From NCBI GenBank assembly GCA_903928915.1, contig CAIYSL010000119.1, positions 62,001 to 126,000 of the forward strand: 64,000 nucleotides of DNA, given 5' to 3'. The position numbers were made by a program, and so were the translations under genes. Source of the DNA: an uncultured Syntrophobacterales bacterium. GTDB lineage: Bacteria; Desulfobacterota; Syntrophia; Syntrophales; UBA5619. Below are positions 27,052-30,320 of this stretch, piece by piece; position 1 is the stretch's first letter, and every line of letters begins with the position of its first letter. Under the pieces are notes generated by a model that saw only the letters and a list, made by a program, of their open reading frames with translations, ran no database searches and was not told where the DNA came from.

Positions 27052-27080
27052 TTGACATCACCCTGTTTTTGTTTTAAGGT
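27052..27080 (+). promoter_or_regulatory. Probable promoter of the 2-oxoacid:ferredoxin oxidoreductase operon
   Basis: TTGACA (27052-27057), a 17-base spacer that is T-rich at its end, and TAAGGT (27075-27080). It lies ~230 bases before the first structural gene, just ahead of the leader peptide frame. Confidence 0.55.
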
Positions 27081-27116
27081 CCGCTCTGTTTCGCCAAGCA
27101 CGCGGGATTTCCGAGA

Positions 27117-27233
27117 ATGAACGGCATGTTAAGAAGGGCATCACGAATCCGTCGGGAACTGCTCGGCCGGGGCCTCCTGTTGCGTCGCACCCTTCTCGTG
27201 ATGGGCAAGGAACCCATCGCCCGTCGTTTTTAG
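27117..27233 (+). CDS. Candidate leader peptide (38 aa, Leu/Arg-rich) for attenuation
   Basis: Short frame between the promoter and an intrinsic terminator, 38 codons with ATG at 27117 and TAG at 27231. Eight codons are Leu, clustered as ELL (15-16), LLL (20-22) and LL (26-27), and ten are Arg. The ribosome site is weak. On the RNA, GATGGG (27200-27205) can pair with CCCATC (27213-27218). CCATCGCC (27214-27221) can pair, with one mismatch, with GGCCATGG (27267-27274), the left arm of the terminator. That is the 1:2 / 2:3 / 3:4 layout of amino-acid attenuation: a ribosome stalled on Leu codons 26-27 would cover segment 1 and free segment 2. No homologous leader is recognised by name, so this is a prediction. 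Confidence 0.5.
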   Translation: MNGMLRRASRIRRELLGRGLLLRRTLLVMGKEPIARRF

Positions 27234-27263
27234 GAAAGGTTCTCCCCGAACACACCGTATCCT

Positions 27264-27297
27264 AAAGGCCATGGGTGGAAAAGACCATGGCCTTTTT
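27264..27297 (+). terminator. Intrinsic terminator in the leader (attenuator)
   Basis: AAAGGCCATGG, a 10-base loop, then CCATGGCCTTT and further Ts, ending only 15 bases before the first structural gene's ATG. A strong terminator between promoter and gene implies regulated read-through. Confidence 0.8.
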
Positions 27298-27312
27298 CAT
27301 TGAGGAACGAGC

Positions 27313-27891
27313 ATGTACGAAGTGATATGGCACGGCCGCGGCGGTCAGGGCGTCGTGATCGCGGCGCAGATCCTCGCCGAATCCGCTTACCTCCAGGGAT
27401 TCAAGGGGGTCACCTCCGCCCCGACCTTCGGCCCGGAGCGGCGCGGGGCGCCGCTGACTGCCTCCACCCGGATCTCCGACACGCCGATTCGGACCTTCTC
27501 GCAGATCGAGCGGGCCGACATCGTCGTCGTGCTCGACCCGACGCTGTTTACGGCGGTCAACATCCTGGGATCGCTGAAGCCCACCGGGTGGCTGCTCGTC
27601 AATACCTCCCAACAGCCCGACGAACTGGATGTCACGGCGGGGATCAACGTCGCCACGGTGGACGCGGCGGCCATCGCCCTGAAGTTCCACCTGATCAAAG
27701 AGGGGGCGCCGATCGTCAACACCCCGATGCTGGGGGTGTTCGCGAGGGCCGCGGGGATCGTCGACGTGGAGCACATGGAGAAGGGGCTCAAGTGGAAACT
27801 CTCCGGCACGGCGGCGGCAACGAACATCGCGGCGCTCAGGGCCGCCTACGAAGAGGCGCGCATCAAACCGGGAACGAGCCAGGTTCCCTGA
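27313..27891 (+). CDS. 2-oxoacid:ferredoxin oxidoreductase, gamma subunit
   Basis: Gamma (PorG/KorC-type) subunit, 192 aa, of a four-subunit thiamine-diphosphate enzyme that oxidatively decarboxylates a 2-oxoacid to acyl-CoA with ferredoxin as acceptor, or runs in reverse. The start EVIWHGRGGQGVVIAAQILA is the family signature, followed by TFGPERRGAP and VVVLDPTLF. It is first of four tightly spaced genes (gamma, delta, alpha, beta), the order seen in archaeal and thermophile pyruvate or ketoisovalerate oxidoreductases. Substrate cannot be read from the sequence. The Leu-rich leader upstream would suit branched-chain 2-oxoacids, but that is inference. Confidence 0.9.
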   Translation: MYEVIWHGRGGQGVVIAAQILAESAYLQGFKGVTSAPTFGPERRGAPLTASTRISDTPIRTFSQIERADIVVVLDPTLFTAVNILGSLKPTGWLLVNTSQQPDELDVTAGINVATVDAAAIALKFHLIKEGAPIVNTPMLGVFARAAGIVDVEHMEKGLKWKLSGTAAATNIAALRAAYEEARIKPGTSQVP

Positions 27892-27907
27892 TCCGGAAAG
27901 GCAGGGT

Positions 27908-28201
27908 ATGGAACCCAAAGACGACAACATCTCCGCCATGTGCAAACCCTCCGTCGGCGAGGCGGGCAGGACCGGCGACTGGCGGGACGCTACCCCGGTC
28001 ATAGACCAGACCAAGTGCATCGCCGCGGTCAAGAACCGGCCCGCCTGCTATCTCTGCTGGCTGTACTGTCCCGAGGGGGTGGTCGAGGCCGGCGTGCCGG
28101 TGAAGATCAACCTCGAGTACTGCAAGGGGTGCGGCGTCTGCGCCGAGGAGTGTCCCTCGAAGGCGATCACCATGGTGATGCACGAGGAGAACGGGAAATG
28201 A
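27908..28201 (+). CDS. 2-oxoacid:ferredoxin oxidoreductase, delta (ferredoxin-like) subunit
   Basis: 97-aa 8Fe-ferredoxin-type subunit that wires the TPP site to external ferredoxin. The second cluster motif is classical (CKGCGVCAEECP). The first is CIAAVKNRPACYLCWLYCP, in which the first cysteine is displaced by an insertion, as in other Por delta subunits. The N-terminal ~40 residues are a polar extension. Its stop overlaps the alpha subunit ATG (ATGA), showing translational coupling; it starts 16 bases after gamma. Confidence 0.9.
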   Translation: MEPKDDNISAMCKPSVGEAGRTGDWRDATPVIDQTKCIAAVKNRPACYLCWLYCPEGVVEAGVPVKINLEYCKGCGVCAEECPSKAITMVMHEENGK

Positions 28202-29403
28202 GCAACGTCCAGATCATGACGGGCAATTCCGCAGCGGCCTGGGGGGCGAGGCTCGCCAAGGTTCAGGTCGTCTCCGCCTACCCGATCACCCCCTCGACCT
28301 CGGTTACCGAAACGATCGCCAACTGGGTCGAGCGGGGGGAACTGAAGGCCGAATACGTCCGCGTGGAGAGCGAGCACTCGGTGATGACGGTTTGCGTCTC
28401 CGCCTCAACCGTCGGCGCCCGGGTGTTCACCTCGACCTCTTCCCACGGCCTGCTGTACATGCACGAGCAGCTCCACTGGGCAGCCGGCTCGCGCCTGCCG
28501 ATCGTGCTGTGCTGCATCAACCGCGGCGTCGGCGCCCCCTGGTCGATCTTCAACGACCAGCAGGACTCGATCGCCCAGCGCGACACGGGCTGGATCCAGA
28601 TCTACTGCCGCGACAACCAGGAGATCATCGATTCGGTCATCCAGGCCTACCGGATCGCCGAAGAGGTCTACTGCCCGGTGATGGTCTGCTACGACGGGTT
28701 CGTCCTCTCCCACACGATGATGCCCGTGGACATCCCCGACGCCGAAGAGGTCTGCCGGTTCCTGCCCCCGTACAAACCCCATACGCTCCTCTGCGCGGAG
28801 GAGCCCCGGAACATCAACCCGGTCATCTTCCCCTGGCAGCGCCGCGACGCCGAGGGGGTCCTCCGGGACGGATACATGGACATGCGCTGGAAGCTCCAGC
28901 ACGCCCTCGAGGGATCGGCCGCCGTGATCGCGCGGACCTCCCGTGACTTCGCAGAACGGTTCGGCCGCGACCACGGCGGGCTGCTCTGGGGCTACCGGAC
29001 CGAGGATGCCGAGCTGTTCATCGCGGCGATGGGCTCGATCGCCACGGAGGCCACGACCGCGGCCGACCTGCTTCGGGAGCAGGGGGTCCGGGCCGGCGTC
29101 GTGGGCGTCCGGGTCTACCGCCCCTTTCCCCGCGAAGAGGTCCGCCAGGCCTTCCGGAGCGCCCCGGCGATCATCGTGTTCGAAAAGGACATCAGCTACG
29201 GATACGAAGGGGCCCTCGCGGCCGACATCAAGGCCGCCCTCTACGGCACCGGGATCGCCGCGCCGATCCATAACTTCATCGCCGGCTTGGGCGGCCGCGA
29301 CGTGAAGGCCCACGAGCTGGCCGAGGCCGTCCGCGCATCGCTGGCGGCGATGGCCCAGGGCACACGCGAGCGGCAGACCTGGCTGAACTGCGTCACCGAG
29401 TAG
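28198..29403 (+). CDS. 2-oxoacid:ferredoxin oxidoreductase, alpha subunit
   Basis: 401 aa, alpha (PorA/VorA-type) subunit. It carries the pyrimidine-binding domain at the N-terminus (GNSAAAWGARLAKVQVVSAY, PITPSTSVTE, VESEHSVMTV) and the transketolase C-terminal-like domain near the end (GSIATEATTAADLLREQGV, EKDISYGYEG). Glu in VESEH is the residue expected to activate TPP. The true start is ATG 28198, overlapping the delta stop; a longer open frame upstream (from 27940) is out of frame with delta and shows no similarity. It is followed 17 bases later by the beta subunit. Confidence 0.92.
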   Translation: MSNVQIMTGNSAAAWGARLAKVQVVSAYPITPSTSVTETIANWVERGELKAEYVRVESEHSVMTVCVSASTVGARVFTSTSSHGLLYMHEQLHWAAGSRLPIVLCCINRGVGAPWSIFNDQQDSIAQRDTGWIQIYCRDNQEIIDSVIQAYRIAEEVYCPVMVCYDGFVLSHTMMPVDIPDAEEVCRFLPPYKPHTLLCAEEPRNINPVIFPWQRRDAEGVLRDGYMDMRWKLQHALEGSAAVIARTSRDFAERFGRDHGGLLWGYRTEDAELFIAAMGSIATEATTAADLLREQGVRAGVVGVRVYRPFPREEVRQAFRSAPAIIVFEKDISYGYEGALAADIKAALYGTGIAAPIHNFIAGLGGRDVKAHELAEAVRASLAAMAQGTRERQTWLNCVTE

Positions 29404-29420
29404 GGAACGGGAGAAGGAAC

Positions 29421-30320
29421 ATGCCGGAAAAACTGTTCAAGGTCAACAAGGAGGAGTACATCCTGCCGGGAAACCGGGCCTGCTCGGGGTGCGGCCTCTC
29501 GTTGGCCTACCGCTACATCCTCAAGGCCCTCCGCGAGAACACGATCCTGACCCTGCCGGCGAGCTGCCTGACGGTCCTCCACGGCCTCTACCCGATCACC
29601 TCGGTGGGGATCCCCTGCCTCAACTGCACCTTCGCCAGCACGGCGGCCTCGGCGTCGGGGATCGTGGCGGGGCTGGCGGCCATGAACCGGACCGACACCA
29701 CCGTCGTGGCCATCGCCGGCGACGGCGGGACCTTCGACATAGGCATCCAGGCCCTCTCCGGGGCGGCCGAGCGGGGGACCGACTTCATCTTCGTCTGCTA
29801 CGACAACGAGGGGTACATGAACACCGGGACGCAGCGCTCCAGCGCCACCCCGGCAGGGGCGCTGACCACCACGACGCCCGTCCTCACCAAGCAGCAGAAC
29901 AAGAAGGACATGATGAAGATCATGGAGGGGCACGACATCCCCTACCTGGCCACCTGCTCCCCCTCCTACCCGATCGACCTGTACGACAAGTTCGTCAAGG
30001 CAAAGCGGATCAAAGGGACCCGGTACCTCCAGGTCGCCACCCCCTGCCCTCCCGGCTGGGTGTTTCCGCCCAAGGACACGGTCAAGATCGGCCGGCTCGC
30101 CGTCGAGACGGGGATCGTAGTGCTGTACGAAATCGAAAACGGGAAGTTCCGGTTCACCGGCCGGAGCAAGACCCTGGCCGAAAAGGGGACCCGCGCGCCC
30201 GTGATCCAGTTCATCGAGCGGCAGGGGCGGTTCCGGAAGATGAGCATGGAGCAGTTGGGAAAGTTCCAGCGGGTAGTCGACGGCAAATGGAACGAGTACC
30301 TCCGCCGGGCAGAGACCTGA
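29421..30320 (+). CDS. 2-oxoacid:ferredoxin oxidoreductase, beta subunit
   Basis: 299 aa, beta (PorB-type) TPP-binding subunit. The N-terminal GNRACSGCGLSLAYRYILKA holds the first of the cluster cysteines, CLNCTF lies near residue 70, and the TPP/Mg motif is AIAGDGGTFDIGIQALSGAA with YDNEGYMNTGTQRS. The C-terminal ~70 residues contain the PorB-type extension (PPKDTVKIGRLAVETGI) and one further Cys region. It ends the operon; a palindrome that could act as terminator begins about 120 bases downstream. Confidence 0.92.
   Translation: MPEKLFKVNKEEYILPGNRACSGCGLSLAYRYILKALRENTILTLPASCLTVLHGLYPITSVGIPCLNCTFASTAASASGIVAGLAAMNRTDTTVVAIAGDGGTFDIGIQALSGAAERGTDFIFVCYDNEGYMNTGTQRSSATPAGALTTTTPVLTKQQNKKDMMKIMEGHDIPYLATCSPSYPIDLYDKFVKAKRIKGTRYLQVATPCPPGWVFPPKDTVKIGRLAVETGIVVLYEIENGKFRFTGRSKTLAEKGTRAPVIQFIERQGRFRKMSMEQLGKFQRVVDGKWNEYLRRAET

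Follow-up and report, generated by a model that had tools for sequence, protein, structure and literature searches.

A predicted leucine attenuator ahead of a 2-oxoacid:ferredoxin oxidoreductase operon in Syntrophales

Introduction

Why should clustered leucine codons and a transcription terminator stand ahead of an operon encoding a 2-oxoacid:ferredoxin oxidoreductase? The question is raised by a stretch of 64,000 nucleotides (the window) from an uncultured Syntrophobacterales bacterium (contig CAIYSL010000119.1). An initial annotation, made from the letters alone, had read the region as an amino-acid attenuator controlling branched-chain 2-oxoacid metabolism. The leader and its operon were compared with those of related genomes.

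The oxidoreductase operon

Four genes on the forward strand form the operon porC-porD-porA-porB (27313-30320), which is followed by a convergent gene. The porC/vorC-like gamma subunit (27313-27891; TIGR02175, 182.5 bits with a cut-off of 81.1; PF01558) and the ferredoxin-type, porD/vorD-like delta subunit (27908-28201; TIGR02179, 83.7 bits with a cut-off of 60.05; Fer4 domains) both pass the cut-offs of their POR/VOR subfamilies. They are joined by a porA/vorA-like alpha subunit (28201-29403, start set by homology; PF01855, PF17147) and a porB/vorB-like beta subunit (29421-30320; PF02775). Four subunits with matching domains are also found in PorCDAB/VorCDAB oxidoreductases (PDB 9bt4; oxalate oxidoreductase, 5c4i), but the window enzyme falls below the equivalog cut-offs of both POR (PorA, NF040682, 433 of 550 bits; PorB, NF008819, 347 of 405) and VOR (alpha, 364 of 646; beta, NF008818, 368 of 405). 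With 357 bits (POR) and 364 bits (VOR) for the alpha subunit, model scores fail to separate the two.

The gene neighbourhood was uninformative as a clue to the substrate. Neighbours were clustered and part of them annotated; no acyl-CoA ligase adjoining the operon was recognised, and the convergent gene was the sole neighbour conserved throughout. Elsewhere in the window's genome, an alpha subunit scoring above the oxalate oxidoreductase cut-off was observed (L189, G000:C108).

Layout and conservation of the leader

Upstream of the porC start codon (ATG 27313), a promoter, a 38-codon frame, a hairpin and a terminator follow each other in the 5' to 3' direction. The promoter (27052-27080), read from the sequence, consists of a -35 box TTGACA (27052-27057), a 17-base spacer and a -10 box TAAGGT (27075-27080). 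It had been called a good one; its position was correct, and the TTGACA-17 layout was found again in relatives, even where the leader is deleted, but the -10 box is weak and a simple promoter scan of the window did not list the promoter. Rereading the sequence placed the leader frame, the GATGGG/CCCATC hairpin and the terminator where the initial annotation had put them. The leader peptide MNGMLRRASRIRRELLGRGLLLRRTLLVMGKEPIARRF is encoded at 27117-27233 on the forward strand (ATG 27117, TAG 27231-27233) and, as had been described, contains eight leucine codons in clusters (codons 5, 15-16, 20-22 and 26-27) and ten arginine codons.

A leader frame or stems lacking conservation in close relatives had been named as evidence against attenuation. 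The leader proved to be conserved across the order ahead of the same porCDAB-type operon. Similar leader DNA was present in 68 of 100 relatives, the nearest by record being uncultured Syntrophaceae/Syntrophales assemblies, and all 31 inspected loci lie upstream of the same gamma gene except the leuA copy. Within the order, a covariance model of the leader found matches in 132 of 155 genomes, a count that includes leuA and other copies. When 80 loci were fetched by the alpha subunit, the leader was found directly upstream of the gamma gene in 40 (E ≤ 3e-5); among these loci the model detected no leader at the more distant alpha homologues (54-59% identity; L144-L152, L154-L164). Several Syntrophales loci giving no strong model match still possess a Leu leader, diverged but accompanied by a terminator (L195, L196, L203-L209, L212, L213).

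Some lineages have lost the leader, among them the leuA-less G002. Loss, whole or partial, was seen at L020, L092, L094, L197, L198, L200, L201 and L202, most of which keep the promoter; at L020 and L202 the Leu region is gone but the terminator remains. In two genomes, the operon or leader occurs a second time (L119 and L242 in G001; L256 and L257 in G057, at contig ends).

Conserved pairings in the leader RNA

The intrinsic terminator (27264-27297) has a stem of 27264-27274 with 27285-27295, a loop of 10 bases and a T-run; 97.8% of its cells are paired in the relatives. As antiterminator, pairing of CCATCGCC with GGCCATGG had been proposed. This pair exists with one mismatch, but it is unconserved (73% of cells) and shows no covariation; it was dropped, the conserved pairing being that of 27220-27235 with 27260-27275. 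The 5' arm of the latter, CCCGTCGTTTTTAGGA (27220-27235), contains the leader stop codon (27231-27233) in the window and is near-invariant as nucleotides despite differing reading frames in relatives. It is conserved as RNA: 15 of its 16 positions are predicted to pair with the 3' arm TCCTAAAGGCCATGGG (27260-27275), and some changes compensate each other. The 3' arm overlaps the 5' arm of the terminator; segment 27264-27275 is common to both structures, which are mutually exclusive, and both pairings are conserved. Longer antiterminator arms (TTTAGAATTT/AAATTCTAAA) occur in L024, L026 and L032.

Between the control codons and the antiterminator lies a pause-type hairpin (P1, segment 1:2; 27200-27218) of GATGGG (27200-27205) and CCCATC (27213-27218). 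This hairpin, already part of the initial annotation, shows compensatory changes, for example AU, CG, GC and UA at one position, and its covariation score was reached by 0 of 500 shuffles. The role assigned to it has to be revised: it does not overlap the conserved antiterminator and is therefore probably a pause or synchronising hairpin. Its loop comprises 6 or 7 bases among relatives, so that the leader end is read in different frames.

Two further observations concern these pairings. The leader start (27110-27125, TTTCCTGAAAATGA-like in relatives) can pair with 27222-27235, which would terminate an untranslated leader. At L133, L136, L137 and L153, the same layout is built from another primary sequence (GGCCTCGTC with GATGAGGCC), with CTC and CTT Leu codons nearby.

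Predicted switching by leucine supply

Folding of the window leader was modelled with the ribosome at different positions. A ribosome placed at codon 26 or 27 (CTT CTC, 27192-27197) gave probabilities of 0.97 for the antiterminator and 0.01-0.02 for the terminator. The terminator reached 0.96 when the ribosome stood at the stop codon and likewise 0.96 without a ribosome, in which case the antiterminator arm is paired with the leader start. Thus, the earlier claim that stalling at Leu codons 26-27 gives read-through is upheld by the folding model, but by way of 27220-27235 with 27260-27275 and not of the pair proposed then.

Equilibrium folding of the complete leader, tried as a test of antitermination, failed in most relatives: once the transcript is complete, the terminator is favoured despite a stalled ribosome. 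The switch must therefore be kinetic, as it is in known attenuators, for which the logic of ribosome-mediated attenuation has been described (PMC1183508). A test on the transcript before the terminator 3' arm was adopted after the equilibrium result had been seen, the rationale being that attenuation is a kinetic race. At this stage the antiterminator was available upon a Leu stall in 38 of 38 leaders (probability 0.62-0.99, median 0.88), and when the ribosome, with an assumed footprint of 12-13 bases, stood at the stop codon, its probability was 0.00-0.03 in all 38 (median 0.00). Shuffling of the upstream segment gave a mean antiterminator probability of 0.35, and the observed value was reached by 19 of 1140 shuffles.

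We propose the following mechanism. When leucyl-tRNA is scarce, the ribosome would stall at Leu codons 26-27, leaving 27220-27235 open to pair with 27260-27275; no terminator would form and the operon would be transcribed. When leucine is plentiful, the ribosome would reach the stop codon at 27231 and mask 27220-27235, and the terminator (27264-27295) would end transcription. Termination is also predicted for an untranslated leader, whose own start region would pair with the antiterminator 5' arm. Transcription, termination and the leucine response of this leader are predictions from its sequence; on these grounds, the oxidoreductase operon is very probably subject to attenuation by leucine supply.

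Leucine as the sensed amino acid

Leader frames of the relatives were picked by a rule blind to Leu content. L100 and L140, for which the rule took a clearly wrong frame, were excluded from the codon-position analysis and from both folding-state analyses of relatives; L119 yielded no frame. Leucine accounts for 24% of the residues in 40 homologous leaders. Its share is maximal near the pause hairpin (87%, 74% and 89%), and the positions of window codons 26 and 27 carry Leu in 89% and 74% of the relatives (38 leaders). The leaders thus offer a translatable frame in which codons for the sensed amino acid stand at the control site.

The same scaffold ahead of other genes

A second copy of the leader in the same genome is located upstream of leuA, and the same scaffold precedes leuA in many relatives. 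A third, weak match in this genome (C61, E 0.31) has neither antiterminator nor Leu leader and was discarded. Related leaders with Lys codons stand ahead of dapA (L044, L053, L056, L238, L241, L258) and represent a possible peptide-based lysine attenuator. Elsewhere in the phylum, leaders with similar terminators (L055, L062, L057-L061, L064) carry Trp runs ahead of a trpB-like gene, or Phe/Tyr codons ahead of genes for DAHP synthase, ADH synthase and an aminotransferase. At L237 and L240 (G038, G065), a Tyr run (YYFYYYYYGG) and the same terminator precede a gene of the tyrosine phenol-lyase/tryptophanase family, perhaps a lyase running toward tyrosine synthesis.

Control codons match the gene product across the related leaders. 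This match acts as a built-in control, and for that reason leucine codons ahead of an oxidoreductase are meaningful. Common descent of the entire scaffold is likely for the leuA and dapA leaders; weaker matches have mainly the terminator half in common.

Loss of leuA and the role of the enzyme

Since leucine starvation would turn the operon on, the enzyme is most likely anabolic, carboxylating for leucine synthesis. In this direction, isovaleryl-CoA, CO2 and reduced ferredoxin would yield 2-oxoisocaproate, and transamination would then give leucine. That the operon under control produces the amino acid being sensed holds for the leuA copy; for the oxidoreductase, a complementarity with leuA was found (uncorrected for kinship).

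We analyzed 92 genomes of the order (≥90% complete, ≤5% contaminated) and determined absence of leuA by a TIGR00973 search. The 22 genomes without leuA are spread over eight families. The operon or its leader was present in 20 of them, as compared to 31 of the 70 genomes with leuA, which thus keep both (Fisher p 1.3e-4, uncorrected for kinship). Only two genomes (G045, G082) have neither leuA nor the operon, 9.8 being expected if the two were independent. An alpha subunit at ≥63% identity is encoded in 18 of the 22 leuA-less genomes; in G057 and G522 the leader lies at a contig end, in G522 together with the gamma gene. This contig-end check was confined to leuA-less genomes and favours the association; without it, the comparison is 18 of 22 with 31 of 70 (p 0.003).

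Furthermore, ilvC is kept in 17 of the 22 leuA-less genomes; hence in many of them leuA is lost while the route common to valine and isoleucine is retained, which fits leucine formation from isovalerate. The five that also lack ilvC may be auxotrophs. Carboxylation of isovalerate to leucine is known biochemistry of rumen anaerobes, established from labelling since the 1960s (Allison 1962 and 1966, as cited in PMC7356843). The activity itself was thus already known, and the reaction of that pathway is the one proposed here; our new proposal is its genetic link to a leucine-regulated operon.

Substrate and direction are deduced from regulation and gene content. We think it somewhat probable that the enzyme converts isovaleryl-CoA and CO2 to 2-oxoisocaproate, for use in leucine synthesis, and with the same moderate confidence we favour the explanation as a whole, a leucine attenuator on a PorCDAB/VorCDAB-type enzyme carboxylating isovaleryl-CoA for leucine.

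The main rival to the isovaleryl-CoA role holds that the enzyme serves anabolism as a pyruvate synthase, forming pyruvate from acetyl-CoA and CO2, under the same leucine attenuator, with leucine as a gauge of biosynthetic demand. Pyruvate and acetyl-CoA are the precursors of leucine, which is an abundant amino acid. We regard this possibility as tentative and distinctly less probable. It agrees with the best score of the alpha subunit, 433 bits with archaeal PorA, and with four small relatives (G024, G040, G086, G091) in which this operon's enzyme is the only one with POR-type alpha and beta subunits found, G040 and G086 having Leu-containing leader frames with a terminator. However, these single-enzyme genomes are 86-97% complete assemblies, and the window's genome has another, more pyruvate-like PorA (C75; 419 bits POR, 313 bits VOR). 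A pyruvate synthase would also leave the concentration of leuA loss in operon-bearing genomes unexplained and give no account of leucine as the single signal.

Enzymes of the POR/VOR class can run in either direction, and in Thermococcales VOR has a catabolic role. Leucine control of catabolic branched-chain 2-oxoacid oxidation, as the initial annotation suggested, is nevertheless improbable and less likely than a biosynthetic role: an operon switched on when leucine is short has the wrong sign for leucine breakdown, and leuA, like further genes of biosynthesis, carries the same scaffold.

Absence of any regulator, the frame being fortuitous and the terminator a commonplace one located between promoter and gene, would be compatible with the folding of the window leader alone, only modestly better than that of shuffles (z -1.5), but this is very improbable, contradicted by order-wide conservation, covariation and codon placement, by which the leader is real and beyond chance. 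Arginine sensing, offered earlier in view of the ten Arg codons in the window leader, is the least likely of all: Arg is found in 0% of the relatives at the two stall codons and numbers merely 2-4 in several of their leaders, and it was discarded as the signal.

Comparison with known attenuators

No Rfam element, amino-acid leaders and T-boxes included, matched the window at gathering scores, and the leader gave chance-level matches alone; a known Rfam element was thereby ruled out. In the openly licensed literature searched, we found no leucine attenuator on this enzyme class or in Syntrophales, which is weak evidence; ilv/leu attenuators occur in other phyla. Among these, the Leu-rich attenuator peptide of Staphylococcus aureus ilv-leu (PMC5794164) and the leuA/ilv leaders of Actinobacteria (PMC1262725) are also leader peptides for branched-chain synthesis, but belong to other phyla and target other genes.

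We are evenly divided on the broadest proposal: that leucine synthesis in Syntrophales proceeds by reductive carboxylation of isovaleryl-CoA, regulated by leucine and carried out by a dedicated PorCDAB-type enzyme, that leuA thereby became dispensable several times, and that the attenuator is a member of an undescribed family of scaffolds in the phylum, one hairpin design with swapped control codons (Leu, Lys, Trp, Phe/Tyr). A leucine-controlled operon tracking leuA loss provides candidate genes for the isovalerate route in uncultured syntrophs, and where the sequence of a reversible enzyme does not tell its substrate, attenuator control codons can show in which direction it works physiologically.

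The leuL, trpL and hisL attenuators of enterobacteria (PMC1183508) share with the window leader a leader peptide with control codons, mutually exclusive antiterminator and terminator, and a stop codon in the antiterminator 5' arm. The window leader shows no sequence or Rfam match to them. In contrast to the enterobacterial systems, its pause hairpin adjoins the antiterminator arm without overlap, its target is a ferredoxin-dependent oxidoreductase operon, and within the phylum a single scaffold serves several amino acids.
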